NCBI RefSeq assembly: GCF_004328705.1
Contig: NZ_CP035319.1
Span: 3,162,001 to 3,226,000, forward strand
Source: Rhodococcus sp. ABRD24
GTDB taxonomy: Bacteria > Actinomycetota > Actinomycetes > Mycobacteriales > Mycobacteriaceae
Reading direction: 5' to 3'
Length of the DNA: 64,000 nt
Below the pieces are notes generated by a model. The model was not told where the DNA came from. It worked only from the letters and a program-made list of their open reading frames with translations, and did no database searches. The translations under genes were made by a program, and so were the position numbers. Below are positions 13,325-45,714 of this stretch, in pieces. Every line of letters begins with the position of its first letter. Within the stretch, counting starts at the first letter, position 1.

Positions 13325-13654
13325 CCGACGTGCCTCCCATATCACGAGCTTGCGTCCGGGCGAGTATCTCGGACGACCCGTCTGCCGAAGCTTAACGCGG
13401 GCAGGTGATTCTCGCGTGCGAAGTCGCTCAGTCCTTTGGTCCCAATGTGTTTCTCGATGCGTGGACTGTCCGATTCGACGATCACTTCCGGCGGCTGCCA
13501 CGTGCAGGGGTTCGGTGTCGATGCCGCAACCATTCGGTCCGAATGCCGCGGTGCCGGTCGTCCGGGTGGCTATCGTCCGGAGTGTGGAGTTCCTGTGGCC
13601 CGCTCCATTGTGCTGCTCGGCGATGCGGACCGGATAGGGGGTGCGATCGTGGTG
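13325..13654. other. Divergent intergenic region
   Basis: About 330 bp between the LuxR-type regulator and the small membrane-anchored protein. It must contain both promoters. Several overlapping frames are open, as expected in GC-rich DNA, but none has a plausible ribosome site or family resemblance. I see no clear repeat or operator. Confidence 0.5.
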
Positions 13655-15742: not shown

Positions 15743-15779
15743 GCGACCCCTTCAGTCGCCGAACGACTTAGGAGTATTT

Positions 15780-16946: not shown

Positions 16947-17050
16947 CAGGAAAGTTCAGAACGAAACTCATCAATCAGTCGGCCCAATAAGTAGCGGAAT
17001 TGAGATTCTGTAAGAACTCCGCGAAAGCCGGATCACGGAACAGGGAAAAG

Positions 17051-23451: not shown

Positions 23452-24414
23452 GTGACGAAGGTGAGATGGGGTGTCTCCGGGCTGTTGCTGATCCTGGTGG
23501 CCGTGCTGGTGCTCGGGTCGGTTCTTGCGAGATACACCCGATCCGAGGTGCTCGACACCGACCGCTACGTCGCCACCGTCGGCCCGTTGGCCTCCGACCC
23601 GGCAGTGCAGGACGCAGTCGGCGATCGCATCAGCGGCATCATCCTCGATCGGATCGACCTGGATGCGCTCACGACCGAGGCCCTGACCTCGCTGACCGAG
23701 AACCTTCCCCGGGGGTCGGGCATCATCGTCGGCTTCTCCCCGGTCCTGGCGAAGCAGGCGGAGGACTTCGTCCGGGAGGCGGTCGACTCGATGGTCGCGA
23801 GTGATCGATTCGCGTCGCTGTGGACCACCGCCAACAGGGCCGCGCACCGGACCCTCGTCGCGGTCGCGACCGGCGAGATCGGTGGGCGTGCCGTGCAGGT
23901 CGACGAGTCCGGAACCGTCAGTGTTCCGTTGCAGCCCTTCGTGGAAGCGGCACGCGACCGACTGATCGAACGGGGCTTCACCTTCGCCGACCGGATATCG
24001 GACACCGATGCCGAGTTCGTGCTCTTGCAGTCGGACAACTTGGCCTCGTCGCAGCGCGCGGTTCGTGCGCTCGATGCGGCCGCGACGTGGCTGCCGTGGG
24101 GGTCGCTGATCGCGGCCGCCGGAGCGGTGCTCATCGCGCCTCGCGGCGGGCGGCTGCGGGCGGTGAGCCTGGCGGGCGTCGCGGTAGCTGTTGCGATGTC
24201 GGTACTGGCGCTGGCCCTGGTGATCGTGCGGTGGATGTATCTCGACGATCTGTCCGCGCAGGCTTTCTCGCCGCTTGCCGCGGGGGCCGTGGTCGATGCC
24301 TTCGCCGGCCCGCTGCGGACGACGCTCGTGTGGGTCTTCCTCGGCGGTGTCGTGGTGGCCGTCGGTGCCCGGCTGATCGGGTTGCGGGAGCTTCGGACCG
24401 ACGCGGGCGGTTAG
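23452..24414 (+). CDS. Membrane protein with an extracytoplasmic domain
   Basis: A 320-residue protein with an N-terminal transmembrane helix (about residues 6-26) and three more near the C-terminus (about 215-235, 240-262 and 290-310). The 180-residue domain between them is outside the membrane. The domain starts with E-V-L-D-T-D-R-Y-V-A-T-V-G-P-L-A, a pattern seen in conserved actinobacterial membrane proteins of unknown role, and has no obvious catalytic site. GTG 23452 is preferred to upstream in-frame starts because the first helix follows at once; an AAGGGG lies upstream. Confidence 0.7.
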   Translation: MTKVRWGVSGLLLILVAVLVLGSVLARYTRSEVLDTDRYVATVGPLASDPAVQDAVGDRISGIILDRIDLDALTTEALTSLTENLPRGSGIIVGFSPVLAKQAEDFVREAVDSMVASDRFASLWTTANRAAHRTLVAVATGEIGGRAVQVDESGTVSVPLQPFVEAARDRLIERGFTFADRISDTDAEFVLLQSDNLASSQRAVRALDAAATWLPWGSLIAAAGAVLIAPRGGRLRAVSLAGVAVAVAMSVLALALVIVRWMYLDDLSAQAFSPLAAGAVVDAFAGPLRTTLVWVFLGGVVVAVGARLIGLRELRTDAGG

Positions 24415-24507
24415 TTACCGGATCGGCGACCTCGCTCGATGTCGGATGGACTCGGCTGTAGAGGTCGTTTGTAAGCGTCGAGGCCCCGCCCCGCGAGCTA
24501 CTCAGCT

Positions 24508-24771
24508 CTATCCCTGATCGACAATAAGCCCGCTGCTTTCGAGTAGCGTGTTCTCCATGTGAGCCAGCCCCGAAGCTGCTGCCGTTATAGCTTCGACCAG
24601 TTCACGTACGAGGAAGAATTCTGCCGGAGTCGTATACCCGGGACCTCGAATATCTGTCTTGATTTTCTCGATGAGACGCTCCGTATCGGCCAGTCGATGC
24701 AATTCTCTACCCATGCTTTCGACCTTGGATTCGAGTGAATCGATATTGTGATTCGCGCGGGTGGGACTCAT
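24508..24771 (-). CDS. Small hypothetical protein
   Basis: An 87-residue mostly helical, acidic protein without membrane segments. The stretch N-I-D-S-L-E-S-K-V-E-S-M-G-R-E-L could form a short coiled coil. I do not recognise the family. Its DNA and the following 250 bp are visibly less GC-rich than the surroundings and use more AT-ending codons, which suggests acquisition. The ribosome site is weak, so the call is moderate. Confidence 0.45.
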   Translation of the reverse strand: MSPTRANHNIDSLESKVESMGRELHRLADTERLIEKIKTDIRGPGYTTPAEFFLVRELVEAITAAASGLAHMENTLLESSGLIVDQG

Positions 24772-25178
24772 GGCAATCCGCCTGTTCGGGTCCGGTTGCC
24801 GACCGCGATCAGGTCATAGCCGTTTCTGGTCCGTGGCCCAATTTTGGGCATGCTTGGGCGACCCGGTCAGCAACTCTGGTAATTCTTATTCTTTGGCAGC
24901 GCTGTGTTTTCATCGTCCGCCGATCAACGTGCAACGTCAAGGCCGTTATGTACCTTTTTCGTGGGTCGGTGAATCCGCCCCAATTCAGAAGATCTTGGCA
25001 GTGTCCGTGTCCGTGTCCGGGCGGTCGACCCTCCTCGGTTGGCTCGTGCGCGTCGGTCCGAAGCCGACGGTTGTCGGCTCGCGGCAGGCGATGATGGGGT
25101 TCGGTCGTCGGGCGTCGTGCATGGCGAACGCTGTAACTCCGCGGTGGGGGCGGGCGCAGGGGCTGCGGGTTGTGGAGG
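24772..25178. other. Low-GC intergenic stretch
   Basis: About 400 bp without a credible gene. The first 220 bp are AT-richer than average. A short tandem GTGTCC triplet repeat lies at about 25001-25018. The open frames have no ribosome site and no recognisable similarity; I take this as non-coding or as remains of acquired DNA. Confidence 0.45.
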
Positions 25179-25469
25179 TCAATCGGCGGAGCGGAGCCTG
25201 ACGGTCGTGATCAGAACGGTCGCGAGCAGCAGTACGGTTCCTAGCACGGACAGGGCTTTCATCGGTCCAGGAATGTCGGTCGTCAGCGAACCGATGTTCA
25301 TCAGCACACAGGCGAGCGTTGCCGTGACAAGTCCGATCGCATACCGGGTGCGGTACTTGCCTGCCGGTAGCTGTCGGGCAGCGGGCGTGGTGGCTTTCGT
25401 CCTGCTGGTGACGAGCAGGGCCGCGCCGACGACGAGGATCGGCAGGCCGACCAGGAAGTAGACAGTCAT
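25179..25469 (-). CDS. Small membrane protein
   Basis: A 96-residue protein with three hydrophobic helices (about residues 3-21, 44-62 and 70-90) and a basic loop after the first. The family is not recognised. The ATG at 25469 has GGAGAG about 10 nt upstream. It lies downstream of the YihY gene on the same strand, 144 bp away, so the two may be co-transcribed. Confidence 0.6.
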   Translation of the reverse strand: MTVYFLVGLPILVVGAALLVTSRTKATTPAARQLPAGKYRTRYAIGLVTATLACVLMNIGSLTTDIPGPMKALSVLGTVLLLATVLITTVRLRSAD

Positions 25470-25613
25470 CGGGAAAGTTCTCTCCTTCAATTTCGCCGCC
25501 GCCAGACGGTTCGTCACCGTTGCGACGTCCGCTACACCATGCTCGAGAATAGGCACCCCGTCGCCTTCGGCTGGGAATTCGGGTACAGCGGGCGCCGCAC
25601 CCAATTCTGCGAG

Positions 25614-28747: not shown

Positions 28748-29067
28748 TCGACGGCTCCGTCGCGGTTCGATCTGACGCGTCCCCGGACCCGACGACGTCA
28801 GCTATGAGCCCGGCTGTCTGTTCCCTCTGCCCGGTTACCGACCAGCAGCCTTCGCCGCTGCCACGCCGTCAGCTGGCCGTGGATGGATCGGCCCAGAATC
28901 GAAATCAGCGAAGGTGCTCGACAGCGACCGAAACACGATGCGTCCGTGGAGACTCGACGCGTCGATCGGTGGGACCGCCCCGATTCGCTGGTGACGACGC
29001 CCGACGCCCGACGCCCGACGCCCGACGCCCGGCGAACAGGTGGGCGAGGACGTCGCGGCGGTACATG
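28748..29067. other. Intergenic region between the multicopper oxidase and IclR genes
   Basis: About 320 bp between convergent genes. It holds the GACGCCC tandem repeat (28996-29030) and no credible gene. No strong terminator hairpin was found, although the repeat itself cannot pair with itself strongly. Confidence 0.45.
28996..29030. repeat. Tandem repeat, 5 x 7 bp
   Basis: Five perfect consecutive copies of GACGCCC, followed by a partial GGCG. It is intergenic. The unit is not a multiple of three and no frame through it looks coding. It could vary in copy number between strains. Confidence 0.85.
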
Positions 29068-29862
29068 TCAGCCTCGTGGCAATGCCTGCACGATCCGTGT
29101 GATGTGTTCTCCGGCTTCGCATACCTTGTCGATCTTCACGCGGAGTGACTCGTCTTCGAACTCGTCAGCCCGTCCACCCACGCTGATGGACGCGAGGACC
29201 GACCCGTCCCGCCCGAGAATCGGTGCCGCCACTGCGGCCACCCCTGGCAAATAGTCGGAGTTGCTGACGGAATACCCTACCTCTCTAATCTTGTCGAGGT
29301 GTTGGACGAGTTCATTCACATCAGTGATCGTCCGATCGGTGATCGCCGGGAGTTCTTCCTTGATCCACCTGTCCTGCAATACTTTCGAGTTCGCAAGCAT
29401 GACAGTTGGGCCCGCCGCAGCGTGATACGGCAGCACCGACCCGACATTGATTCCCGCGACGACGAGCGTATTCCTTCCCTCCAGGAGATCTATGCACACC
29501 GCACCCTGTTCGGCAGGCACCATCAAGTACGCGGTATTGCCGAAAGCTGCGGCAAGATCGGACAAGAATGGTCTTGCTGCGGAACGGATATCGAGTTTCG
29601 CCAACGCAGCGGAACCGATCTCGAACACCGGCATCGCGATTCGGTAGGCACCTTCGCCGGTCCGATCCACCCATCCTGCGTGGATCAGTGTGGCCATCAG
29701 GCGATGCACCGTGGTCTTGTTCATCCCGCTCGCCGCTGTGAGGGCGTTCAAAGTCCAGACCGGCCGGTCGGCGCCGAAGTGCTCGAGCAGTGCGCAGGCC
29801 TTGAGGACGGCCCCCACAGTATCGCGACCTCCCGGCGATTCGTGCTCGATAGGCACAGTCAC
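29068..29862 (-). CDS. IclR-family transcriptional regulator of the hydratase-lyase operon
   Basis: A 264-residue IclR regulator. The winged helix-turn-helix (about residues 12-75, with G-M-N-K-T-T-V-H-R-L-M) is followed by an effector domain containing V-G-S-V-L-P-Y-H-A-A-A-G-P and a late S-I-S-V-G-G. It starts at GTG 29862 and is divergent from the lyase operon with 147 bp between, the standard layout for local control. A GAAATCGATTCC near-palindrome (29977-29988) in the shared region is a candidate operator. The inducer is probably the operon's substrate. Confidence 0.88.
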   Translation of the reverse strand: MTVPIEHESPGGRDTVGAVLKACALLEHFGADRPVWTLNALTAASGMNKTTVHRLMATLIHAGWVDRTGEGAYRIAMPVFEIGSAALAKLDIRSAARPFLSDLAAAFGNTAYLMVPAEQGAVCIDLLEGRNTLVVAGINVGSVLPYHAAAGPTVMLANSKVLQDRWIKEELPAITDRTITDVNELVQHLDKIREVGYSVSNSDYLPGVAAVAAPILGRDGSVLASISVGGRADEFEDESLRVKIDKVCEAGEHITRIVQALPRG

Positions 29863-29932: not shown

Positions 29933-29988
29933 TTGACTTTGTGACTTGAACCACCCTACGGTGCGTACCGCAATACGAAATCGATTCC
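29933..29988 (+). promoter_or_regulatory. Candidate promoter and operator of the hydratase-lyase operon
   Basis: TTGACT (29933-29938) and TACGGT (29957-29962) are separated by 18 bp and make a plausible promoter. A 12-bp imperfect palindrome, GAAATCGATTCC (29977-29988), lies at the expected transcript start, where a bound IclR protein would block. The lyase GTG follows 22 bp later. Confidence 0.45.
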
Positions 29989-30009
29989 GCATGGCGAAAC
30001 GGAGCGACT

Positions 30010-30879
30010 GTGTACCGTCGGACTTTGAAAGACCTCACATCACACGGCCTCGTCTACGCCCCAGGCGTATGGGACGGCCTTACTGCCCGACTGGCAGACC
30101 AGGCGGGATTCAGCGCCCTGTGCGCCTCGGGCTTCGCGGTCTCGGCCGCGCTCGGACTCCCCGATGCCGAGCTCTACACCCAGACCGAGAACTTGCAGGC
30201 AGTCCGCACGATCCTCGAAGCGTCGAAACTGCCACTGGTGGCCGATATCGACACCGGGTACGGGAATGCGGTGAACGCCGCACGCACCGCTGCCAAATTT
30301 GCCGCCGCGGGCGTCGGTGGCATGTTCATGGAGGACCAGGTCTCTCCCAAATCCTGCCCGATCTGTGTTGGCAATCCCGTCGACCTGATCAGCGTCGCCG
30401 AGGCGACTGGCAAGATCCGCGCCGTCCGCGACTCGATTCCTGACGACATCCTCCTGATCGCCCGTACCGATGCGCGCGGGGACGACGCCATCCGCCGTGC
30501 CCAGACCTATGTCGCGGCCGGCGCAGACATGATCATGCCGGTCACCAAGACCTTCGAAACTGTCGAACAGTGGCAACGCTGCCACGAAGAAGTCGGGGTT
30601 CCACTGATGGCTACCCTGACCGCCTCGACCTGGACCGAACGCGAGTTCACCCCCGAGGTCCTCGACCAGATCGGTGTCCGACTGGCCCTGCTGCCCACCC
30701 AAGTGCTGATGGCTGCGGCCGGTGCTGCCCGCGCAACACTGAAGCGATTGGCCGCCGGCGAACCACCCGCCGAGGTCGGCGCAGACGCACTCGAGCACCA
30801 CGAATTCATGGAACTGATCGGCTTCCCCGAGGTCGAAGCCATGCAGAAAAAGTACCTACCGTCCGGCCAGGAGCAGTGA
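30010..30879 (+). CDS. PEP mutase/isocitrate lyase-superfamily lyase (dimethylmalate/methylisocitrate lyase-like)
   Basis: A 289-residue TIM-barrel lyase. Superfamily residues are visible: V-A-D-I-D-T-G-Y-G (Asp79, Asp81), the magnesium-binding E-D-Q at 108-110, and the flexible loop with K-S-C (Lys114, Cys116). Relatives cleave 2-methylisocitrate, isocitrate or 2,3-dimethylmalate to a keto acid plus an acid by retro-Claisen chemistry. The loop reads K-S-C-P-I-C instead of the usual K-x-C-G-H, so the substrate is probably not isocitrate. Because the next two genes encode an aconitase-like hydratase, a 2,3-dimethylmalate or methylmalate-type substrate is the best guess. GTG 30010 has GGAG 5 nt upstream. 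Confidence 0.82.
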   Translation: MYRRTLKDLTSHGLVYAPGVWDGLTARLADQAGFSALCASGFAVSAALGLPDAELYTQTENLQAVRTILEASKLPLVADIDTGYGNAVNAARTAAKFAAAGVGGMFMEDQVSPKSCPICVGNPVDLISVAEATGKIRAVRDSIPDDILLIARTDARGDDAIRRAQTYVAAGADMIMPVTKTFETVEQWQRCHEEVGVPLMATLTASTWTEREFTPEVLDQIGVRLALLPTQVLMAAAGAARATLKRLAAGEPPAEVGADALEHHEFMELIGFPEVEAMQKKYLPSGQEQ

Positions 30880-30884
30880 TCGCC

Positions 30885-32141
30885 ATGGGGTACACGATGA
30901 CGGAGAAGATACTGGGTCGCGCCTCGAGTCGGCACGCGGTTCGCGCCGGTGAAAACCACGCGGTGAAGCCCGCTCGGATGATCGCCTACGACTTTCCCGG
31001 CTACACCGACGTGATGTTCCGCCAGATGCACAACGACTTCGGGATCACCGAATTGCAGGACCCGAGTCGCTATATCGTTTTCATCGATCACATGCTCACC
31101 AAGCACAACGACACGGAAGCCGAAGTCCACCAGGTTACTCGAGATTGGTGCGATTTCTACGGCATCGAGCTGCACGAAGGGCGCGGCATCGGTCACCAGC
31201 TGACTGCCGAACTCGGCCTCGCTATTCCCGGCGAGTTCCTCGTGCATTTCGACGGCCACATCAGTGGGGTTGGGGCTTTTGGGGCGCTCGGCTGGGGTAT
31301 CCGACGAGATCTCATCGAAGCCTGGGTCACCGGCCAGGTGTTCGTCGATATCCCAGCCACTACTCGATTCGACCTCCTCGGTGAGTTCCCACGTGGCGTC
31401 GATAGCCGCGACCTCGTCCACACCATCATCGAAATGGTCGGCGCCGACGGTTGCGCTCACCAAGTGATGGAATTCGGTGGACCGGGGGCACGCTCGATGG
31501 CCATCGATCACCGCCAGGGCCTCTGTGGAATGGCAATGTTCACCGGAGCCGTCTCCGCGGTATTCGAACCGGATGAGATGTCGCTGGCCTACGCGAATGA
31601 AGTCGCCCGCCGCAACTTCGATCCGGTGTATCCCGATACCGACGCCATCTATACCGCCCGCCACACGATCGACCTCGCGACCCTGACCCCACGGGTGGTA
31701 TTGCCCGGCTCGGCTCGCGTTGCCAATACCAAGACGGCAGAAGAGCTTGCTGGCACACCCATCACGAGAGCCTTCATCGGCTCATGCGCCAGCGGTCGAA
31801 TCGAGGATCTGCGTGCTGCGGCGCTGGTGCTTGACGGGGGAAAAGTCGCGCCAGGCGTCGAACTCAACATCGTGCCGACTTCCCAGCGAGTGTACGACCA
31901 GGCCGAGGAAGAAGGCATCCTCGATGTGCTTCGGCAGGCTGGTGCGCACATCAATCAGTCGAGTTGCGACTTCTGCTTCGGTTACCAGAAACCACTGCAG
32001 GCCGGCGAGAACTGCATCTCAACCGGTGTCCTGAACATCGCGGGCCGGATGGGCAGTTCCGACGCCAACATATACATGGGGTCGCCGTACACAGTCGCAG
32101 CCAGCGCCCTGGCAGGCACAATTCAGGAATCGGTCCAGTGA
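30885..32141 (+). CDS. Aconitase-family hydratase, large subunit (isopropylmalate/dimethylmaleate dehydratase-like)
   Basis: A 418-residue iron-sulfur hydratase subunit of the LeuC/DmdA type. It starts M-T-E-K-I-L-G-R-A-S and keeps the three [4Fe-4S] cysteines: Cys301 in GSCASGR, and Cys361 and Cys364 in S-S-C-D-F-C. LeuC proper is about 470 residues; this shorter form matches archaeal-type and dimethylmaleate hydratase subunits. It would add water across a substituted maleate double bond in the cytoplasm. The ATG at 30885 has AGGAG 11 nt upstream, 5 bp after the lyase stop; a GTG overlapping that stop (30876) is also in frame. Confidence 0.85.
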   Translation: MGYTMTEKILGRASSRHAVRAGENHAVKPARMIAYDFPGYTDVMFRQMHNDFGITELQDPSRYIVFIDHMLTKHNDTEAEVHQVTRDWCDFYGIELHEGRGIGHQLTAELGLAIPGEFLVHFDGHISGVGAFGALGWGIRRDLIEAWVTGQVFVDIPATTRFDLLGEFPRGVDSRDLVHTIIEMVGADGCAHQVMEFGGPGARSMAIDHRQGLCGMAMFTGAVSAVFEPDEMSLAYANEVARRNFDPVYPDTDAIYTARHTIDLATLTPRVVLPGSARVANTKTAEELAGTPITRAFIGSCASGRIEDLRAAALVLDGGKVAPGVELNIVPTSQRVYDQAEEEGILDVLRQAGAHINQSSCDFCFGYQKPLQAGENCISTGVLNIAGRMGSSDANIYMGSPYTVAASALAGTIQESVQ

Positions 32142-32671
32142 GTTCCTACCCGCCACCTCCCGACATCATCGAAGGCAAGATCGCTTGGATCTTTGGCCAC
32201 GATTTCGATATCGATCTCGTCGTCGGCGTGTCCAATATCAAGTCCTACAATCCCGACCATCTGCGTTCGGTGTGCATGAAGGAATACGATCCGACGTTCA
32301 CCGATCGCGTCTGCCCCGGCGACATCATCGTCGGGGGTCGCAACTTCGGCTATGGCCATCCGCACTATCCGCCCATGGTCGCTCTCCGGAATGCCGGTAT
32401 CGCCGCCATAGTCGCAGAGTCCTTCTCGCCCGGTTTTTGGCGCGGCGAGACCTTCAACGGCATGCCGTTGATCACGGTCCCCGGTGTATCGACCGCAGTA
32501 CGGGTTCACGATTCCGTAGCCCTCGACTGGCGCGCTGCCACTCTGCGACTGTCCGACGGAACCCGCCTGGTCGGCACCCCGCCCAATCCTCGGACCGTAC
32601 AGGTCATCGAGGCCGGCGGTTCCTACAACCTCCTGCTCGCTGAGCGCGCACGCGAAAGACAGGCTCAATGA
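32138..32671 (+). CDS. Aconitase-family hydratase, small subunit (LeuD/DmdB-like)
   Basis: A 177-residue swivelling domain that completes the active site of the large subunit. The key substrate loop reads G-R-N-F-G-Y-G-H-P-H-Y-P-P (residues 67-79), where ordinary LeuD has G-x-N-F-G-C-G-S-S-R-E-H. The serine and arginine that normally bind the substrate carboxylate are replaced by histidines and aromatic residues. GTG 32138 overlaps the large-subunit stop by 4 nt (GTGA), so translation is coupled. The fold is clear but the altered loop argues for an unusual substrate. Confidence 0.82.
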   Translation: MSSYPPPPDIIEGKIAWIFGHDFDIDLVVGVSNIKSYNPDHLRSVCMKEYDPTFTDRVCPGDIIVGGRNFGYGHPHYPPMVALRNAGIAAIVAESFSPGFWRGETFNGMPLITVPGVSTAVRVHDSVALDWRAATLRLSDGTRLVGTPPNPRTVQVIEAGGSYNLLLAERARERQAQ

Positions 32672-34017
32672 TGAACACCGAACCTTCCCTCGAGGCCAGT
32701 GACCTTCGCCCCTCCGAACCACTCCCGGCAATACCGTTGAAAAAGTCGAGTTCCGTGGCCCGGCGCGCCGCCATTGCAGGCGGTGTCGGCACCCTCATCG
32801 AATACTATGACTTCGCGGTGTATGGCTTCCTCGCCATCACCATCGCGCCCCTCTTCTTCCCGTCGGACAGTTCCTCGGTGTCGATTCTGTCCACTCTGGC
32901 TGTTTTCGGCGTTGCCTACGTCGCTCGTCCGCTCGGCGGGATCTTTTTTGGTCGCCTCGGCGACCGCCGCGGACGTCGGTCCGCACTCGTTATCACCGTC
33001 GTCAGCATGGGCGTGGCCTGCGGCATTCTCGGCCTACTCCCGACTCACTCCAATGTCGGCGTCGTCGCCCCCGTCTTACTGGTACTCGTCCGGCTTGCCC
33101 AAGGATTCTCTGCCGGCGGTGAAGTCGGCGGCGCGGCTACTTACATCGCCGAATCGGCACCGACCGGAAAGCGCGGATTCTTCGGGTCCTTCACACCGGT
33201 CGGTTCGACACTCGGCTTCGCCGTGGCTGCCGCAGTCGTTGGCGTGGTGGCCCTTCTCACCACGGAAGAACAGATGGAGTCGTGGGGTTGGCGCATCCCA
33301 TTCTTGCTCGCACTTCCCCTCGCCGCTCTCTGTCTCCGGGTCAGGATGAAGCTGGAGGACACCCCTGAATTTGAGGAGATGGCCGAAAAGCAGCAGGTCA
33401 CAAAGAGTCCGCTACTTGACACCATCACCCAAAATCCGCTGGCAGTCCTCCGAGTCGTGGGCATCGCCATCGCCATGAACGGTTCCGGCTACATCGGATT
33501 GACGTACTTCAGCGTATATCTGATCAACGACGTCGGGTTTTCGAAGGACACCGTCTACTGGACATCGGCCATCAGTATTGCTCTGGCCTGCACCACATTC
33601 CCGCTCAGCGGCATGCTCACTGATAGATGGGGCCGCAAACCGATACTGATTGGCGGCTACCTCGCTTTTGTCGTGATCGCGCTCCCTGCCTTCATCATCA
33701 TGAGCTCAACATCCAGCATTCTTGTCATCGGCATCGTCTACTTCGTCTATATGGTGCTCAACGGGGTCGTGCAGGTCCCCGCTTTCCCCCTGTTCACGGA
33801 ACTCTTCCCCCGTACGGTCCGCTACACCGGAGTATCCCTGGGCTTCAATATCGGCACCATTGCCGCTGGTGGAACAGCGCCCTACGTCGCCGCCCAGCTC
33901 GTCGAATCGACCGGCAACGCAATGTCACCCGCCTACTGGGTCATGGGAGTTTGCGTCATCGGCCTCCTCACGGTCCTCACGGTCCGTGAGACCGGACAGA
34001 AGGAACTCCCGGCATGA
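32668..34017 (+). CDS. MHS-family (MFS) transporter
   Basis: A 449-residue, 12-helix metabolite:H+ symporter. Family motifs include G-T-L-I-E-Y-Y-D-F-A-V-Y in helix 1, G-D-R-R-G-R-R in loop 2-3, and G-F-S-A-G-G-E-V-G-G-A in helix 4. It overlaps the hydratase small-subunit stop by 4 nt (ATGA) and the ligase start by 4 nt, so it belongs to the operon. It presumably imports the dicarboxylic or tricarboxylic acid that the operon degrades. A second MHS gene of the same family lies at 17051-18376. Confidence 0.88.
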   Translation: MMNTEPSLEASDLRPSEPLPAIPLKKSSSVARRAAIAGGVGTLIEYYDFAVYGFLAITIAPLFFPSDSSSVSILSTLAVFGVAYVARPLGGIFFGRLGDRRGRRSALVITVVSMGVACGILGLLPTHSNVGVVAPVLLVLVRLAQGFSAGGEVGGAATYIAESAPTGKRGFFGSFTPVGSTLGFAVAAAVVGVVALLTTEEQMESWGWRIPFLLALPLAALCLRVRMKLEDTPEFEEMAEKQQVTKSPLLDTITQNPLAVLRVVGIAIAMNGSGYIGLTYFSVYLINDVGFSKDTVYWTSAISIALACTTFPLSGMLTDRWGRKPILIGGYLAFVVIALPAFIIMSSTSSILVIGIVYFVYMVLNGVVQVPAFPLFTELFPRTVRYTGVSLGFNIGTIAAGGTAPYVAAQLVESTGNAMSPAYWVMGVCVIGLLTVLTVRETGQKELPA

Positions 34018-35738
34018 GCACCCACGACCCGGAAACGGCACCAACCGATGAGTCCCAAAAGAGCGCGGTCGCCGCACAGTTCGAGGCCCGGCCCCGCTTG
34101 TGCACACTCATCGAAGCCTGGAGTAACCGGGTCCGACACGATCCTGACTCTCCAGCCCTGGTGTACTTCGACAACACGCTCTCCGTGCGCCAGGCCGATG
34201 ACTTCGCGAATGCGCTCGCAGTTGCCCTCGCCGAACTCGGCGTGGGGCACCGCGATCGGGTGGGCATCCACCTCCAGAACATTCCGCAATATGCGCTTGT
34301 TCTACTCGCACTGTGGAAACTCGGCGCGACCGCGCTCTTGATCAACCCAATGTACCGCGGCCGGGAGCTGCGGGAGTTGGTCACCGATGCGGAACCGCTC
34401 GGGATCATCACCACCGACCACGATGTGCAGGCGGTCAGGGAGAGCGTCACCGGAACGACGGTTCGGTGGGTGCTCGGGACCGCAGAATCCGATCTGCAGT
34501 CGCGTGACGATCCCCGGGTTTTCGGCTCGCCCTCCGGGAGCTCAGAATCAGAGGGGCTCACCCGAGATGCTCCGGCAACGACAGCAACACCATTGGCGTC
34601 CCCCGAGATCGATCTACTGCGGCTCGCTGACGAGTACATCGGCAAACGTCCTCCTCAGGTCAGACTTGGCAGCGACGATTTGGCGTTCCTCGCCTACACC
34701 TCAGGCACGACCGGGCCTCCGAAGGGTGCGATGAACACACACGCCAACGTGCTCGCGGTGACCACCAACTTCGCGCGACTCGCTGGCATCGCCCCAGGAG
34801 ATGTCGTCTTCGCGCTCGCTCCGTTGTTCCACATCACCGGCGCCGTCGTCATCGCTTCGCTCGCCCTTACCGAACAAACCACCCTGGTGTTCGCTGGGCG
34901 CTTCCAGAACGACGTGGCTGTCGATGCCATGCATGAGCACAGGGTCACCTACACCATAGGATCGATCACCGCCTTCAACGCGATAATGAACTCCAATTAC
35001 GCTTCTGCCGAGCACTTCTCCCACGTGAAGACGCTGTTCAGCGGGGGAGCTCCGGTGCCGCCGAGTACGGTCGTCCGATTCCAGGAACGGTTCGGCCACT
35101 ACATCCACAACGCCTACGGCATGACTGAAACCTCATCGGCAGTCGCCGCAGTACCGCCCGGCACATCCGCGCCGGTGGATCCCGGCAGCGGAACACTGTC
35201 AATCGGACGACCATTACCCGGTGTGAAGTTGGAAGTGATCGACTCCGAATGCCGGCCACTCCCACCCGGACATCAAGGCGAACTCGTCATTACCGCCCCA
35301 CAAGTGGTCTCCGGGTACTGGCGCAAACCAATGGATTCCGACGCGATTATGCTCGGGGGAAGGCTCCGATCCGGTGACAGCGCAATCGTGGACGAACATG
35401 GCTGGGTCTACCTAGTAGACCGGATCAAGGACCAGATCAACGTCTCCGGGTACAAAGTATGGCCACGAGAAGTCGAGGACGTGCTCCACGCGCATCCGGC
35501 TGTACTCGAGGCGGCGGTCGTGGGAGTTCCCGACGAGTATCGCGGGGAGTCGGTAGCCGCCTACATCTCGCTGAGGGATGGGCACAGCATCGGCCCCGAC
35601 GATTTACTGTCGTTCGCCCGCGAGCGCCTTGCGCCCTACAAGCGCCCCAGAACCGTCAAAATCGTTGCGGAACTACCGAAAACGCAAACGGGTAAAATCC
35701 GCAGACGCGCACTGCGTGATCCTGAATTGTCCTCGTGA
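34014..35738 (+). CDS. Acyl-CoA synthetase (AMP-forming)
   Basis: A 574-residue ANL-superfamily ligase. The AMP-binding signature Y-T-S-G-T-T-G-P-P-K-G-A, the Y-G-M-T-E-T-S motif, the hinge D-R-I-K-D-Q-I-N-V-S-G and the C-terminal catalytic lysine in T-Q-T-G-K-I-R-R-R are all present. It would activate an acid to its CoA ester. A variable stretch at about residues 150-200 (poorly conserved, serine and proline rich) is longer than in typical members. It starts at ATG 34014, overlapping the transporter stop. It may activate the propionate-like or acetate-like product of the lyase, or the substrate itself. Confidence 0.88.
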   Translation: MSTHDPETAPTDESQKSAVAAQFEARPRLCTLIEAWSNRVRHDPDSPALVYFDNTLSVRQADDFANALAVALAELGVGHRDRVGIHLQNIPQYALVLLALWKLGATALLINPMYRGRELRELVTDAEPLGIITTDHDVQAVRESVTGTTVRWVLGTAESDLQSRDDPRVFGSPSGSSESEGLTRDAPATTATPLASPEIDLLRLADEYIGKRPPQVRLGSDDLAFLAYTSGTTGPPKGAMNTHANVLAVTTNFARLAGIAPGDVVFALAPLFHITGAVVIASLALTEQTTLVFAGRFQNDVAVDAMHEHRVTYTIGSITAFNAIMNSNYASAEHFSHVKTLFSGGAPVPPSTVVRFQERFGHYIHNAYGMTETSSAVAAVPPGTSAPVDPGSGTLSIGRPLPGVKLEVIDSECRPLPPGHQGELVITAPQVVSGYWRKPMDSDAIMLGGRLRSGDSAIVDEHGWVYLVDRIKDQINVSGYKVWPREVEDVLHAHPAVLEAAVVGVPDEYRGESVAAYISLRDGHSIGPDDLLSFARERLAPYKRPRTVKIVAELPKTQTGKIRRRALRDPELSS

Positions 35739-36189: not shown

Positions 36190-37239
36190 ATGAGGAATGT
36201 GAAGATCGGGCGCGCGCGTGTTCTGGCGGCTGCGATTATCGTGACCGCCGCGTCGGTGCTCGCGGCGCCGGCAACAGCTTTCGCCGGGGGCGCCACCACG
36301 TCGCCGGCAAAGGACGCGACGATGACGGCGACCGGCGCATACCTCGTGAGCACCACCAAGAACTCCGACCGCAAGGTCACGATCTCGGTGTACTCGCCGT
36401 CGATGGACCGGAAGATCCCGCTCGAGGTCATCCTCCCCGCAGACACCAGTCAGCCGCGCCCGACGCTCTATCTCCTCAACGGCGCGGGCGGCGGTGAGGA
36501 CTCGGCTACCTGGCAGCGGAAGACCGATGTCATGAACTTCTTCCGGGACAAGAACGTCAACGTCGTCACCCCCCTCGAAGGCGCGTTCAGCTACTACACC
36601 GACTGGGTCAAGGACGATCCGACGCTCGGCCGCCAGAAGTGGCAGACCTTCATGCTCGAGGAACTGCCGCCCGTCATCGACGCCGAGTTCGACACCAACA
36701 AGGTGCAGTCCATCGCGGCGATCTCCATGACCGGTACCTCGGTACTCAACTACGCAATCGCCAAGCCTGGCTTCTACAAGAGTGTCGGTTCCTTCAGCGG
36801 CTGCGCCGAGACCAGCACCTGGGTCGGTCAGAATGCGATCCAGTTGGTGACCGGTGTGCGCGGGGGAGTCGACATCACCAACATGTGGGGCCCCCTCGAT
36901 GGACGGGGTTGGATCGACAACGATCCGGTCGTCAATGCCGAAAGGCTCCGCGGGACCGAGCTCTACATCACCACCGGCTCCGGACTGCCCGGCCCGCACG
37001 AGACGTTGAACGGTCCGGGTATCAACGGTCAGATGGGGGCGCTCGCCAATCAGGTCATTGTGGGCGGTGTGCTCGAGGCCGGAACCAACTACTGCACTTT
37101 CAACCTGGCGAACCGTCTCGCCCAGCTGAAGATTCCGGCGACCTTCGACTTCAAGCCCGGCGGCACCCATTCATGGGGCTACTGGCAGGACGATCTGCAC
37201 AACTCCTGGCCGATGATCGCCCGGTCGATGGGGATTTAG
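36190..37239 (+). CDS. Secreted mycolyltransferase (antigen 85 family)
   Basis: A 349-residue alpha/beta hydrolase exported by a Sec signal peptide (about residues 1-32, ending A-F-A). It matches the Corynebacterineae antigen 85/Fbp/Cmt esterases that transfer mycolic acid between trehalose monomycolates and to arabinogalactan. The nucleophile is Ser179 in A-I-S-M-T-G, in place of the more common G-L-S-M-x-G; the acid and the histidine in H-S-W-G-Y-W follow near the end. It starts at ATG 36190, 8 nt after GGGGAGG. A 21-bp hairpin terminator follows. Confidence 0.9.
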   Translation: MRNVKIGRARVLAAAIIVTAASVLAAPATAFAGGATTSPAKDATMTATGAYLVSTTKNSDRKVTISVYSPSMDRKIPLEVILPADTSQPRPTLYLLNGAGGGEDSATWQRKTDVMNFFRDKNVNVVTPLEGAFSYYTDWVKDDPTLGRQKWQTFMLEELPPVIDAEFDTNKVQSIAAISMTGTSVLNYAIAKPGFYKSVGSFSGCAETSTWVGQNAIQLVTGVRGGVDITNMWGPLDGRGWIDNDPVVNAERLRGTELYITTGSGLPGPHETLNGPGINGQMGALANQVIVGGVLEAGTNYCTFNLANRLAQLKIPATFDFKPGGTHSWGYWQDDLHNSWPMIARSMGI

Positions 37240-37392: not shown

Positions 37393-37947
37393 ATGCAACC
37401 TGGAGAGCGCGACGTCGAGCCCCGCACACGGCTGCGGGAAGCGGGTCTGCGTGTCACCGCTCCTCGCGTTGCGGTTCTGAACACCGTTGCCGCGAATCCA
37501 CATTCGGATGCGGAGCAGGTCGCTGCCGAGGTGCGCCGTCAGCTCGGTTCGGTCTCGAGACAGGCTGTCTACGACGTCCTCGGGGCCTGCGTCCGTGCGG
37601 GGTTGCTGCGCCGGATCGAGCCCGCAGGCTCGTCGGCGCGGTACGAGACCCGCACCGCGGACAACCATCACCACCTGGTGTGCCGCGCCTGCGGCGCGGT
37701 CGTCGACGTCGATTGCGTCGTCGGTCATGCTCCCTGCCTGGAGCCCTCGAGTGACCACGGGTTCGTAATCGACGAGGCCGAGGTCGTGTTCTGGGGTCTG
37801 TGTTCCGAATGCCGGAAGGATTCGGCGAAAACCGGGGCACGGGCCGATGCCAGCTCACAGAATCAAGACGATGTACCCGGATCGGGTGGGTCGATCACTT
37901 CGAAGACAGCCACAGCCCATCAGTGCCAAGGAGGCTTCGCAAAATGA
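37393..37947 (+). CDS. furA: FurA-type peroxide-sensing repressor
   Basis: A 184-residue Fur-family repressor that controls the adjacent catalase. The N-terminal winged helix ([11 protein letters not shown], about residues 15-80) is followed by the metal region with H-H-H-L-V-C-R-A-C and a second pair, C-S-E-C. Typical FurA is about 147 residues; the last 40 residues here are polar and low-complexity and run into the katA start, so the tail may exist mainly to couple translation. The stop overlaps the katA ATG by 4 nt. No ribosome site precedes the ATG, in line with a leaderless message. Confidence 0.9.
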
Positions 37948-39410
37948 CGTCCGCACAGTCACGTCCGACGACGAACAACTTCGGAATCCCCGTCGCCAGC
38001 GACGACGAGTCGCTCACCGCGGGGACGCAGGGACCGATTCTTCTGCACGACCACTACCTGATCGAGAAGCTGGCGCAGTTCAACCGCGAGCGGGTGCCCG
38101 AGCGCATCGTGCATGCCAAGGGCGGTGGTGCATTCGGCGAACTGGTCATCACCGGTGACGTCAGCAAATACACCAAGGCGAAGTTCCTGCAGCCCGGCAA
38201 GAAGACCGAGTCGCTGGTGCGGTTCTCCACCGTCGCCGGCGAGCAGGGCAGCCCCGACACCTGGCGCGATCCGCGCGGGTTCGCGATGAAGTTCTACACC
38301 GAAGAGGGCAACTACGACCTCGTCGGCAACAACACGCCGATCTTCTTCATCAAGGACCCCATCAAGTTCCCCGACTTCATCCGCTCACAGAAGCGGTTGC
38401 CGGGTTCGGGTCTGCGTGACCACGACATGCAGTGGGACTTCTGGACGCTGCGTCCGGAGACCGCGCATCAGGTGACCTGGCTGATGGGGGATCGCGGCAT
38501 CCCGAAGACGTGGCGGCACATGGACGGTTTCGGTTCGCACACCTACCAGTGGGTCAATGCTGCCGGTGAGCGCTTCTGGGTCAAGTACCACTTCAAGACC
38601 GACCAGGGCATCGAGTTCCTCACGCAGGCCGAGGCAGACACGCTCGCCGGCTCCGACCCGGACTACCACCGCGCCGATCTGTACAACGCGATCGACCGCG
38701 GTGAGTTCCCCACCTGGACCATGAAGGTCCAGGTCATGCCGGTCGCGGAGGCGGAGGGCTACCGCTTCAACCCATTCGACCTGACCAAGGTGTGGTCCCA
38801 AAAGGACTACCCCCTGATCGAGGTCGGCAAGTGGACCCTCAATCGCAATCCGGAGAACTTCTTCGCGCAGATCGAGCAGGCGTCGTTCGAGCCGTCGAAC
38901 GTGGTGCCGGGCATCGGATTCAGCCCCGACAAGATGCTGCTCGGCCGCGTGTTCTCCTACGCCGACGCGCACCGGTACCGGATCGGCACCAACTACGCCG
39001 ACCTCCCGGTGAATGCACCCAAAGCGCCCGTGAACTCCTACTCCAAGGAGGGCGCGATGCGCTACAGCTTCAACTCCGCCGACACCCCGGTATACGCGCC
39101 CAACTCGTATGGCGGACCGCACGCCGATCCGTCGGCCGCCGGCGACGAGGGCCTGTGGGCGTTCGACGGCGAGGCAGTGCGCGCCGGATACATTCAGCAC
39201 CCGGAGGACGGCGACTTCACCCAGGCCGGAACCTTGGTCCGCGAGGTGCTCGACGACGCCGCCCGTGAGCGTCTGGTGAGCAACATCGTCGGCCATGCGC
39301 TCGGCGGTGTCAGCGAGCCGGTGCTGCAGCGCGTCTTCGAGTACTGGAAGAACGTGGACGCCGAGCTCGGCAAGAAGGTCGAGGAAGGCGTGCGCGCCGG
39401 CCAGAAGTAA
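37944..39410 (+). CDS. katA: Catalase (monofunctional, haem)
   Basis: A 488-residue clade 3-size monofunctional catalase that dismutates hydrogen peroxide. Motifs are the N-terminal [13 protein letters not shown], the distal histidine in E-R-I-V-H-A-K-G, the asparagine in Y-D-L-V-G-N-N-T-P, and the proximal haem tyrosine in [14 protein letters not shown]. It starts at ATG 37944 with AAGGAGG upstream, overlapping furA by ATGA. In mycobacteria furA pairs with katG, a catalase-peroxidase; the pairing with a monofunctional catalase here is a rhodococcal or streptomycete-like variation. A 15-bp terminator follows. Confidence 0.95.
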
Positions 39411-40907: not shown

Positions 40908-42710
40908 GTGGATGCCGGCGAGTACAAGATGTCGACGAGCCCGTCGCGTAACGGAATGTCCCGCAGGGGATTCCTCGGCAAGGCGGCCGGGGCAGCGGCG
41001 GGCGCCGCGGCCCTGACGGGAATGGGCTGGTCCCCGGTCTTCGCGCTACCGCCGGCCGGCTCGACTGGTTCCGGTGGTGGACCGGTGTCCGCTCTTCCGG
41101 TGCCGCCGACGTTCCCGTCGGACATCCCGCTGACCCAGCAGGCCTACGTCAACTGGGCCAAGGACATCCGGTTCGACGCCGTCTGGACGGCGATCGCGCG
41201 GACGCCGGACGACGTGGTGCGGATCGCGAACTGGGCCAAGGACAACGGCTTCCGGGTCCGGGCGAGGGGCACCATGCACGGCTGGAGCCCGCTCACCGTC
41301 GTGCCGGGTGAGAGCGTCGAGAAAACCCTGCTTGTCGACACGATGACTCACCTGAACTGGGTGAACGTGAACCCGTCCGGTACCCCGGCAACTGTGACGG
41401 CCGGCGGGGGCGCGAGTCTCGAGGCGATCCTTACCGCGCTGCAGCAACACGGCCTCGGTTGGGCGAACTCGCCCGCCATCGGAGATCTCTCGATTGCCGG
41501 CGTCCTCGCGATCGGCGCACACGGCGCCACCTACCCAGCGGCGGGTGAGACCGTGACGCCCGGTCAGTCGTATGGCTCGCTGTCGAATCTGGTGACTGCG
41601 ATGACCGCAGTGGTGTGGGACGAGAACATCGATCGATTCGTGTTGCGCGATTTCACCCGCGCCGATCCCGAGATCACCGCGCTGCTCACTCATCTGGGCC
41701 GCAGCTTCGTCACCGCGGTGACCCTGCAGGCCGGCGCCAACGTCCGGCTGCGCTGTCAGAGCATTATGGACATCCCGTGGCAGGAGATGTTTGCGCAACC
41801 GGGAGCGCCGGGCCGGACGTACGAGAGTTTCGTCGAGCGGTCGGGTCGCGTCGAGGCGATCTGGTTCCCGTTCACCGACAAGCCGTGGCTGAAGATCTGG
41901 ACCCCGACGCCGGTTCGGCCGCCGGAGTCGCGGGAAGTGTTCGGCCCCTACAACTACTTTTTCACCGACAACCTGCCCGAACCGCTCACCGATCTACTCG
42001 GACAGGTGGCCGCGGGTATCCAGGCGGCCACGCCGGCGTTCGGAATCGGGCAGTTGGTGGCCGTACAGGCCGGCCTGGCGCTCACCGACACAGACGACCT
42101 GTGGGGTTGGTCCAAGGACGTGCTGTTCTACCTGCGGCACACCACGATGCGGGTCACCGCGGGCGGCGGCGTGGTCGTGACGAAGCGTGCCAACATCCAG
42201 AGAGTGATCAACGAGTTCACGACATGGCACAACCGGCGGATGAGTGAGTTGGCTGCCGAAGGCAAGTATCCGATCAATGGTCCGTTCGAAGTCCGGATGT
42301 GCGGCGTCGACGACCAGTCCGAGGTACTGGTGGAATCGGCTGGGCCGCCGAATATCTCCGCGGTCCGTCCGCGCCCGGACCACCCCGACTGGGACACCTG
42401 CATCTGGATGAACGTCGTCACACTCCCCGGAACGCCGGGTGCGTCCGCATACTTCCGGGAGATGGAGCGCTGGATGGCAGACAACTACTCGGGCGACTAC
42501 GCGACGTTCCGATCCGAGTGGGCGAAGGGCTGGGGCTTCACGGACCAGGGCGGGTACCGCGATCCGGAGTGGCTAGGGGAGACGCTGCCGGCCGCGTACA
42601 CCGAGGGGATTCCCGCATCCGGGAACTGGGCGGCCACTCGCGCCTCGCTCAACGCGCACGACCCGCACCGGGTGTTCGCCAACAGCTTCCACGATCGTCT
42701 GCTTCCGTAG
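40908..42710 (+). CDS. VAO-type cholesterol oxidase (covalent FAD), Tat-exported
   Basis: A 600-residue FAD oxidase of the vanillyl-alcohol oxidase fold with a cholesterol-oxidase substrate domain. It oxidizes 3-beta-hydroxysterols to the 3-keto-4-ene form. The N-terminal S-R-R-G-F-L-G (residues 18-24) plus an alanine-rich stretch is a twin-arginine signal. The FAD domain has R-A-R-G-T-M-H-G-W-S-P, with His124 a likely covalent FAD site, and I-G-A-H-G-A-T-Y. The whole matches Brevibacterium-type class II cholesterol oxidase. GTG 40908 has GGAG 8 nt upstream; an ATG at 40929 would still keep the Tat signal. Confidence 0.88.
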   Translation: MDAGEYKMSTSPSRNGMSRRGFLGKAAGAAAGAAALTGMGWSPVFALPPAGSTGSGGGPVSALPVPPTFPSDIPLTQQAYVNWAKDIRFDAVWTAIARTPDDVVRIANWAKDNGFRVRARGTMHGWSPLTVVPGESVEKTLLVDTMTHLNWVNVNPSGTPATVTAGGGASLEAILTALQQHGLGWANSPAIGDLSIAGVLAIGAHGATYPAAGETVTPGQSYGSLSNLVTAMTAVVWDENIDRFVLRDFTRADPEITALLTHLGRSFVTAVTLQAGANVRLRCQSIMDIPWQEMFAQPGAPGRTYESFVERSGRVEAIWFPFTDKPWLKIWTPTPVRPPESREVFGPYNYFFTDNLPEPLTDLLGQVAAGIQAATPAFGIGQLVAVQAGLALTDTDDLWGWSKDVLFYLRHTTMRVTAGGGVVVTKRANIQRVINEFTTWHNRRMSELAAEGKYPINGPFEVRMCGVDDQSEVLVESAGPPNISAVRPRPDHPDWDTCIWMNVVTLPGTPGASAYFREMERWMADNYSGDYATFRSEWAKGWGFTDQGGYRDPEWLGETLPAAYTEGIPASGNWAATRASLNAHDPHRVFANSFHDRLLP

Positions 42711-42897: not shown

Positions 42898-43704
42898 ATG
42901 CAGAAGAAGGCTACGACGACGATCCTTCGTCCCGCATATGCCCTCGACTCGGTCGACAACGCACTGCGACTGCTGCAAATGCTGCGCGATTCCGGTGCGC
43001 TGCGACTCAAGGACGCCGCCGAGGAACTGGGCATCTCTCCGTCGACGGCGCACCGGCTGCTCGCAATGCTCGTCTACCGGGGTTTCGCCGTCCAGGACGA
43101 GAAGCGCCGGTACCACCCGGGGCCCGCAATGGGCGTCGGTCCTGCGCGGCACGGCTGGACCCGCGAGTTCACCGACGTCTGCCGGCCACACATGGAGGCC
43201 CTCGCTGTCGGGTGCGGGGAGACGGTCAACCTCGTCATCCGCGTCGGCGCCCAGGTGCGGTTCTTGTACTCGGCCGAGAGCCGGTCCCTACTGCGTGTGG
43301 GCGATCGGCAGGGGCAGGTTCTGCCTGCCGAGCACACCGCGGGCGGACGCATCCTGCTCGCCGAACTACCCCGGCCGGTGCTCGAACAGCTGTACCTGCG
43401 CCCGGACGAGGAGCCCGGCGCCGACCATGCGGGCGACAACCGGATGGCGGCGTCCGACTTCGCGGCGTTCGTACGCGAGCTCGACGCCGTCCGGAACGTG
43501 GGCTTCGCGGTGAATGTCGAACAGACGGAGGCGGGGGTAACGGCGATCGGTGTCGCGATCCGCAACGGTCGTGGCCGGATCCTCGGCGCGTTGACGGCGA
43601 CTGTCCCGGCCGCCCGCTATCGGCGGCAGTTACAGGGGGACCTCGTCGCGCGCCTGCACGCCGCGGTGCGTGGCATTTCGGTGGACGTCGCCGATCTCGA
43701 GTGA
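42898..43704 (+). CDS. IclR-family regulator of gentisate degradation
   Basis: A 268-residue IclR protein with the winged helix-turn-helix at about residues 15-75 (L-G-I-S-P-S-T-A-H-R-L-L) and a C-terminal effector domain with S-L-L-R-V-G-D-R-Q-G. It sits directly upstream of the gentisate dioxygenase gene on the same strand, 104 bp apart, with no terminator between them. It probably controls that operon in response to gentisate or its precursor. The ATG at 42898 opens on a lysine-rich N-terminus; the ribosome site is weak. Confidence 0.88.
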   Translation: MQKKATTTILRPAYALDSVDNALRLLQMLRDSGALRLKDAAEELGISPSTAHRLLAMLVYRGFAVQDEKRRYHPGPAMGVGPARHGWTREFTDVCRPHMEALAVGCGETVNLVIRVGAQVRFLYSAESRSLLRVGDRQGQVLPAEHTAGGRILLAELPRPVLEQLYLRPDEEPGADHAGDNRMAASDFAAFVRELDAVRNVGFAVNVEQTEAGVTAIGVAIRNGRGRILGALTATVPAARYRRQLQGDLVARLHAAVRGISVDVADLE

Positions 43705-43808
43705 ATCCTCGATGATTCCGCACAGCAGAATCTACTGGCTCGGTTCGCGGACCCCGCCCTACGTTGAGGCCACGCCGGAAACACGCGGCACGCCTCACGA
43801 GGAGACCG

Positions 43809-44879
43809 ATGACCGACATCGAGAACACCGACCCGGAGCTGGCGCAGCTCTACACCGATTTCGCCGCCGAGAACCTCAACCCGCTGTGGACGCAGCTCGG
43901 AGACCTCATGCCGATGGTGCCGACGTCCAAAGCTGTACCGTTCGTATGGAAGTGGTCCACGCTGTACCCGCTGGCGCAGCGTGCCGGGGATCTCGTGCCG
44001 GTCGGCCGGGGCGGCGAGCGCCGCGCGATTGCGCTCGCGAATCCGGGTCTGGGCGGCGTGCCGTACGTCACCCCCACTCTGTGGGCGGCGATCCAGTATC
44101 TCGGCCCGCGGGAGACCGCGCCTGAACATCGGCACTCGCAGAACGCTTTCCGCTTCGTCGTAGAGGGCGAGGGAGTGTGGACGGTCGTCAACGGCGATCC
44201 GGTTGCGATGCGGCGCGGCGACTTCCTGCTGACTCCGGGCTGGGCGTTCCACGGCCACCACAACGAGACCGACCGGCCGATGGCGTGGATCGATGGCCTC
44301 GACATTCCGTTCGTCCGCTACACCGATACCGGGTTCTTCGAGTTCGGTGCCGACGGCGTCACCGACGAGTCGACCCCCGATATCTCTAGGTCGGAGCGTC
44401 TTTGGGCGCATCCGGGGCTGCGCCCGCTGATCGGGCTCGACGCCCGCACCAGCTCGCCCATCGCGTGCTATCGCTGGGAGCACACCGACCGCGCGCTTTC
44501 CGAACAGCTCGCGCTCGAGGACGAAGGCCATGCCGCAACTGTAGAGCCCGGGCACGCCGCCGTCCGATACACGAACCCGACCACCGGGGGCGATGTGATG
44601 CCCACCATTCGCGCCGAGTTCCACCGGCTGCGGCCCAGTGCGGCGACTCGCACCCGCCAGGACGTCGGTTCGACGGTGTTCCAGGTCTTCGAGGGCGAGG
44701 GCCGCTTCCGCCTCGGCGAGCACACCCATGATGTCGCGAAGGGCGACATGATAGTTGTCCCCTCGTGGGTGCCGTGGTCCCTCGAAACTGACGCGGGCAT
44801 AGATCTTTTCGCATTCTCGGATGCTCCGATCGTGGAGCGTCTGCACTTTCACCGTACCCATATTTCTGAAGGAGCTTGA
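43809..44879 (+). CDS. Gentisate 1,2-dioxygenase
   Basis: A 356-residue bicupin iron(II) dioxygenase that opens the gentisate ring to maleylpyruvate. The N-terminal cupin keeps the metal histidines in E-H-R-H-S-Q-N-A-F-R-F (His107, His109) and W-A-F-H-G-H-H (His148); the second cupin near residue 300 is degenerate, as usual. A GAGGAG lies 4 nt before ATG 43809. 1-Hydroxy-2-naphthoate dioxygenase is a close relative, but the two following genes complete the gentisate route, which decides the call. It is the first enzyme gene of a three-gene operon. Confidence 0.9.
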   Translation: MTDIENTDPELAQLYTDFAAENLNPLWTQLGDLMPMVPTSKAVPFVWKWSTLYPLAQRAGDLVPVGRGGERRAIALANPGLGGVPYVTPTLWAAIQYLGPRETAPEHRHSQNAFRFVVEGEGVWTVVNGDPVAMRRGDFLLTPGWAFHGHHNETDRPMAWIDGLDIPFVRYTDTGFFEFGADGVTDESTPDISRSERLWAHPGLRPLIGLDARTSSPIACYRWEHTDRALSEQLALEDEGHAATVEPGHAAVRYTNPTTGGDVMPTIRAEFHRLRPSAATRTRQDVGSTVFQVFEGEGRFRLGEHTHDVAKGDMIVVPSWVPWSLETDAGIDLFAFSDAPIVERLHFHRTHISEGA

Positions 44880-44884
44880 GTACC

Positions 44885-45706: not shown

Positions 45707-45714
45707 GAGGGTTC

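Follow-up and report, generated by a model that had tools for sequence, protein, structure and literature searches.

A Rhodococcus operon with an aconitase-type hydratase lacking the general-base serine and a lyase lacking the KxCGH loop

A five-gene plus-strand operon of Rhodococcus sp. ABRD24, intact at 30010–35738 of the window (the 64,000-nucleotide stretch analyzed here, positions 3162001–3226000 of contig 1 in a 5.1 Mb genome), encodes a lyase of the phosphoenolpyruvate (PEP) mutase/isocitrate lyase superfamily, a two-subunit aconitase-type hydratase, an MHS-family symporter, and an acyl-CoA ligase. An IclR-family regulator gene, also intact, lies divergently on the minus strand. The hydratase has no serine where aconitase has its general base, and the lyase has KSCP in place of a KxCGH loop. 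We lean, with modest confidence, toward the view that the operon is an accessory catabolic module for hydration, cleavage, and activation, with this noncanonical, serine-less hydratase and the lyase as a co-specialized pair. A tentative extension is that the hydratase belongs to an aconitase-superfamily branch that hydrates by means of a histidine-based loop and is co-inherited with a lyase lacking the loop GH, on a catabolic route for an acid for which no such degradation is known. The original prediction, made from the sequence alone, had described these genes as one unit, and its gene positions and family assignments hold; it had missed that the active-site motifs of both enzymes deviate from the families it named.

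Active sites of the hydratase and the lyase

The small-subunit loop reads NFGYGHPHYPP, as compared with NFGCGSSREHAP in the isopropylmalate isomerase 3vba, and the alignment is ungapped at this place. GHPHY occupies residues 73–77, where LeuD and aconitase have GSSRE, and aconitase Ser642, Ser643, and Arg644 are replaced by His74, Pro75, and His76, respectively. A serine equivalent to Ser642, which is the general base of aconitase (PMC8184944), is absent, with His74 at the aligned position. Substitutions also occur in the large subunit (numbered from the ATG at 30885). Ser166 is replaced by Gly124 and Arg447 by Leu383 in alignments to 1aco and 4nqy, and Asn446 is replaced by Val382 in the alignment to 4nqy, there being a gap at this position in that to 1aco. 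The large subunit reads VLN and DGH where the canonical NRNF and DSH stand. We take Arg447, Asn446, Ser166, and Arg644 to be among the 20 active-site residues of aconitase.

The Fe-S (iron-sulfur) cysteines (Cys301, Cys361, and Cys364) are kept, as are residues lining the cluster site in aconitase (His104, Asp123, His125, and Glu196 by alignment to 1aco; Asp68 and His69, presumably aconitase 100 and 101, by alignment to 4nqy). Arg388, the equivalent of aconitase Arg452, is kept as well in the alignment to 1aco. With the cysteines and the cluster-site residues in place, hydratase chemistry is still likely. The protein has an aconitase domain (PF00330) with the three Fe-S cysteines, and belongs to the aconitase superfamily by fold and cluster ligands despite the loss of the serine.

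According to PMC8184944, other aconitase subfamilies share more than 15 of the 20 active-site residues, and a figure legend there describes the 20 as completely conserved across all aconitases except aconitase X (AcnX). AcnX (cis-3-hydroxy-L-proline and mevalonate 5-phosphate dehydratases) is likewise an aconitase-superfamily branch that has departed from the canonical active site. However, AcnX has a serine, required for activity, that is possibly homologous to Ser642 (PMC8184944), whereas the window hydratase has the canonical cysteines and has lost the serine. Compared with methanogen isopropylmalate/citramalate isomerase and homoaconitase (4nqy, 4kp2, and 3vba), the window hydratase replaces the general-base serine and the Arg447-type and Ser166-type positions.

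GHPHY is present in all 240 homologs listed when the window protein and a Variovorax protein were used as queries (648 and 1678 found; best 120 of each examined). Where a listed homolog is named, it is mostly as 3-isopropylmalate dehydratase or 3-isopropylmalate/(R)-2-methylmalate dehydratase, and such names are put in doubt. No GHPHY hydratase, nor this operon, was found in the literature as searched by title and the start of the abstract; most subscription journals fell outside this search and may contain such a description. Two further LeuD-like small subunits lack GSSR, one from Roseomonas (L154, NFGHHNHVEV) and one from an actinobacterium (L037, FGIPSHPP), which suggests that other serine-less branches may exist.

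The lyase, with KSCP in its loop, keeps Asp79, Asp81, Glu108, Cys116, and Arg152, among which are the metal-site aspartates. Cys116 corresponds to Cys191 of isocitrate lyase, which is the proposed catalytic acid of that enzyme and whose Ser mutant was inactive (PMC7609661). Fold, metal-site aspartates, and loop Cys place the protein in the PEP mutase/isocitrate lyase superfamily, and structural models predict the expected folds for both enzymes. Methylisocitrate lyase PrpB and petal death protein differ from the window lyase in having KxCGH rather than KSCP and in falling outside its clade. As compared with phosphonopyruvate hydrolase and PEP mutase, the window lyase retains the loop Cys, and it reaches 111.7 of 374.4 bits with the model for the former and 110.5 of 319.55 bits with that for the latter.

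Linked motifs and operon organization

The motifs of the three proteins are linked across loci. The window and 52 chosen loci gave a table of 51 rows. Among the 41 rows in which all three genes are present, all 18 GHPHY loci (class A) combine LN at the Arg447 site with DGH and a KxCP lyase, and all 23 GSSR loci combine RN with DSH and a KxCGH lyase. L078 and L085, in which the small-subunit motif was re-read as GSSREQ, are counted as GSSR; the ten rows in which one or more genes are missing at the length limits of the script (L004, L037, L038, L042, L089–L091, L145, L148, and L154) fall outside the 18 and the 23. The remaining methylitaconate-isomerase loci were screened separately, the short loci L043–L070 being left out, and none matched all three proteins.

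Trees were built with 15 class A representatives, leaving out seven near-duplicate loci (L026, L027, L034, L073, and L081–L083) and, for the large subunit, frames of at least 520 amino acids. Class A forms one clade in the lyase tree (98/96), and a 98/97 branch parts it from all KxCGH lyases. Class A is also one clade in the large-subunit tree (100/100), with Eubacterium barkeri outside; the deep branch that places E. barkeri elsewhere is weak (74/72). In both trees class A splits into an actinobacterial and a proteobacterial group. A single clade with the same split in both trees fits joint inheritance, and a GHPHY/KxCP class that arose once makes the linkage a co-inheritance of a specialized pair, not repeated coupled evolution. 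A branch in two phyla without Ser642 would mean different acid-base chemistry on the textbook Fe-S fold, and the GHPHY/KxCP motif pair offers a simple handle for re-annotation and for the hunt for the substrate.

Table 1. Genes and candidate operator of the operon region (window coordinates; GTG and ATG are alternative starts)
Feature	Position	Strand	Evidence
IclR-family regulator, divergent	29068–29862	-	PF01614 2.7e-29; PF09339 4e-13
Candidate IclR operator, imperfect palindrome TACGAAATCGATTCCGCA	29974–29991	n/a	Putative, by alignment with palindromes of other loci
PEP mutase/isocitrate lyase superfamily lyase, 289 amino acids	30010–30879	+	PF13714
Aconitase-type hydratase large subunit	30876 (GTG) or 30885 (ATG) to 32141	+	PF00330 9.6e-71
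Hydratase small subunit, LeuD/DmdB-like, 177 amino acids	32138–32671	+	TIGR02087 96.6 bits, under cut-off of 108.95
MHS-family metabolite/proton symporter	32668–34017	+	TIGR00883 1.3e-118, 396.5 bits, under cut-off of 443.45; PF00083; PF07690
AMP-forming acyl-CoA ligase	34014–35738	+	PF00501 1.1e-83; PF13193 2.1e-23

Overlaps of 4 nt join the large- and small-subunit genes (GTGA), the small-subunit and MHS genes (ATGA), and the MHS and ligase genes (ATGA), as had been predicted for three of the four junctions; the lyase/large-subunit junction is a fourth such overlap only with the GTG start. The divergent regulator gene was also correctly predicted (Table 1). The candidate operator was aligned with the perfect palindromes TGCGGAATGCATTCCGCA (plasmid of R. 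opacus, L001) and TGCGGAATGCGTTCCGCA (L029). Just downstream of the regulator gene (29000–29034) is a short run of CGACGCC-type repeats.

Gene order is largely shared among the 12 actinobacterial chromosomal loci (the window and L025–L035), which speaks against a chance arrangement. The order lyase-large-small-MHS occurs in 11 of them (the window and L025–L034) and on the R. opacus plasmid; no MHS gene was found in L035. All 12 have an IclR gene in the stretch examined, and in eight (the window and L025–L031) it diverges directly from the lyase gene. While the transport genes are of the MHS family in actinobacteria, proteobacterial loci have branched-chain-type ABC or TTT-type genes. An acyl-CoA ligase gene adjoins the core in 10 of the 12, and these ligases form three groups that are 27–36% identical to each other. 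The first is that of the window and L025–L028, whose ligases are 72–73% identical to that of the window and in the same place; the others are those of L030–L031, also downstream, and of L032–L034, divergent and upstream. That ligases from different groups were recruited repeatedly suggests a cleavage that frees an acid in need of activation. Comparison with solved structures was uninformative as to ligase specificity, the matches being scattered over many ligase types. Genes flanking L025–L027 and thiamine pyrophosphate-enzyme genes beside L030 and L031 are shared within close relatives only and were not used.

Proposed route and alternative readings

Gene order, protein families, conserved and replaced residues, clade structure, and patchy presence are the observations behind the reading of the operon as a catabolic module. 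An unsaturated organic acid would be imported by the MHS carrier, and the [4Fe-4S] hydratase would add water to it, yielding an α-hydroxy acid; His74, or a neighbor in the GHPHY loop, may take the place of the usual serine base. Splitting of the hydroxy acid by the metal-dependent lyase, with Cys116 as acid, would then give an α-keto acid (probably pyruvate) together with another carboxylic acid; the latter would be activated by the acyl-CoA ligase as a CoA ester for further breakdown. The reactions would run in this, the degradative, direction, and IclR presumably controls the unit. The best fit for the substrate is an unsaturated dicarboxylate with a bulky substituent. The hydrate-then-cleave scheme of the original prediction is plausible in this form, as regulated import, hydration, cleavage, and activation with hydratase and lyase in sequence, but the specific substrate it proposed is unsupported.

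Several observations weigh against this reading. The GHPHY/KxCP linkage is conservation after one ancient switch, not repeated covariation. Phosphonopyruvate hydrolase likewise lacks KxCGH and lies, on a long branch, beside class A on the same side of the 98/97 branch, which makes a hydrolase-like reaction possible. In L029 and L035, no ligase gene was detected next to the core; the only ligase match of the R. opacus plasmid locus (27%) is ~3.8 kb away; and in proteobacterial loci an adenylate-forming gene occurs only in L002 and L153, beyond the regulator (L152 is unannotated). Given the loci without an adjoining ligase, the product need not be an acid, and the 10 of 12 is a raw count, uncorrected for how often such ligases adjoin unrelated operons. 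The lactonase-like, GlcD-like, or FAH-family genes of proteobacterial class A loci may point to another substrate there.

These neighbors, along with FAH-family, GlcD-type, or lactonase-like genes at L035, are accommodated by a rather unlikely alternative, in which the hydroxy acid has no second carboxylate. The leaving half would instead be activated by a ketone, α-keto acid, lactone, or amide, the cleavage would be retro-aldol (or hydrolytic) rather than retro-Claisen, and both enzymes would have dropped the residues that handle the second carboxylate. Consistent with this, both enzymes have changed residues near the substrate, and the lyase has kept its metal side. However, the recurrent actinobacterial acyl-CoA ligases hint at an acid product, Arg388 is kept, and Lys35 of the small subunit, nearly invariant across class A, could bind a carboxylate instead.

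Quite unlikely is a route of the type formed by DmdAB and 2,3-dimethylmalate lyase, in which methyl- or dimethylmaleate would be hydrated and cleaved to pyruvate plus acetate or propionate, as originally proposed. We recovered the nicotinate locus of E. barkeri VPI 5359 (L072) by a search with the E. barkeri methylitaconate isomerase sequence. Beside mii are a lyase gene (12586–13455) and two hydratase genes (15215–16504 and 16520–17011), which by synteny we take to be dml, dmdA, and dmdB. The window shares with this locus its protein families, its clustering of genes, and the same plausible reaction order, and the window lyase keeps the catalytic Cys and metal site. The E. barkeri motifs are, in contrast, canonical (KKCGH in the lyase; NRNF, DSH, and GSSREH in the hydratase), and both of its hydratase genes pass the NCBIfam cut-offs for 3-isopropylmalate dehydratase (TIGR02083 and TIGR02084). 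The window has GHPHY rather than the GSSREH loop of DmdAB and KSCP rather than the KxCGH loop of 2,3-dimethylmalate lyase, and the 98/97 branch separates its lyase from those of E. barkeri and A. niger (the latter on a long branch). Identity to the E. barkeri proteins is also lower for the window than for the canonical actinobacterial locus L041 (lyase, 34% and 44%, respectively; large subunit, 34% and 39%; small subunit, 26% and 36%). The claim that the window encodes the very enzymes with which nicotinate fermentation concludes in E. barkeri finds no support in these motifs and identities or in the position of the lyase in its tree. From the sequence, methyl- or dimethylmaleate appears an unlikely substrate: we found no positive evidence for it, and its likelihood is lowered by the substitutions at the serine and arginine positions. 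Acetate and propionate, moreover, would hardly need a dedicated acyl-CoA ligase. The pair is probably a variant branch of a known enzyme partnership and not the known dimethylmaleate pathway.

The same hydratase-lyase pairing, with canonical GSSR and KxCGH motifs throughout as opposed to those of the window, occurs at L036, L039–L041, L140, and L155–L157. These pairs lie outside clostridia, in actinobacteria and other organisms, one of them on a haloarchaeal plasmid, and may be closer in function to DmdAB and dimethylmalate lyase. The name dimethylmalate lyase is also used for a methylcitrate-cycle gene in PMC9804861 and PMC8471276.

We rejected LeuCD (TIGR02083, 258 of 610.65 bits; TIGR02084, 65.5 of 245.85 bits) and PrpB (TIGR02317, 186.5 of 354.4 bits, with neither PrpC nor PrpD among the operon proteins). 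Grouping with ordinary LeuCD and methylisocitrate lyase, which the original prediction had named as counting against itself, was not observed, as the window lyase and large subunit fall in their own clade in two trees. The genome has two more aconitase-domain genes, LeuC- and AcnA-like by size, and another PEP-mutase-family gene, with loop KRCGH. These other copies, along with scores far under the equivalog cut-offs, led us to reject a LeuCD/PrpB housekeeping set. No match to the PrpF family was found in the genome.

It is improbable that the hydratase is an isomerase carrying out a LeuCD-like hydroxyl shift whose product the lyase uses, perhaps in biosynthesis. The four classical aconitase-family enzymes do isomerize by sequential dehydration and hydration (PMC8184944), but the MHS-type carrier and IclR favor catabolism, and the operon genes include no synthase or dehydrogenase. 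Drift to a hydratase that is no longer catalytic, for which the loss of the general-base position might speak, is very hard to credit given the constancy of GHPHY among the listed homologs and the conserved cluster ligands.

Distribution and genomic setting

A survey of 298 genomes sampled from the order found close relatives of the small subunit (E <1e-70) in 12. It gave seven weaker matches besides, four of which are canonical pairs (L036 and L039–L041) and three of which have no complete readable set (L037, L038, and L042). Across the phylum, 157 of 396 genomes have a sequence match, whatever its motifs, at E ≤1e-12; below two strong matches, those listed are at most 38% identical. Within the genus, the unit is present in 1 of 14 genomes, whereas the flanking multicopper oxidase gene is matched in 14 of 14, which argues that the unit is accessory. 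The G+C content of the operon is 0.60–0.63, as compared with 0.67–0.69 in the left flank at 25–28.5 kb (0.63 at 24000–25499) and 0.63–0.65 in the right flank at 36–39 kb, rising thereafter up to 0.68–0.69; this weakly suggests recent acquisition. Class A also occurs on replicons of a plasmid collection, from Rhodococcus, Azospirillum, Variovorax, and Comamonas. In a Polaromonas record, the large subunit of the class A copy is split into two frames, and no lyase was found in that stretch.

Other genes lie to the right of the operon. A putative esterase gene (36190–37239, PF00756) has six matches in its own genome and 5–11 in each of 13 other genomes of the genus (E ≤1e-60). It is followed by genes for a FUR-family regulator and a catalase (37393–39410) and for a cholesterol-oxidase-type FAD protein (40956–42710, PF09129, 5.7e-163). 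About 7 kb from the operon, genes for an IclR regulator, a cupin protein, an FAH-family hydrolase, and a mycothiol maleylpyruvate isomerase stand in a row (42898–46431) and, by their families, likely constitute a gentisate pathway.

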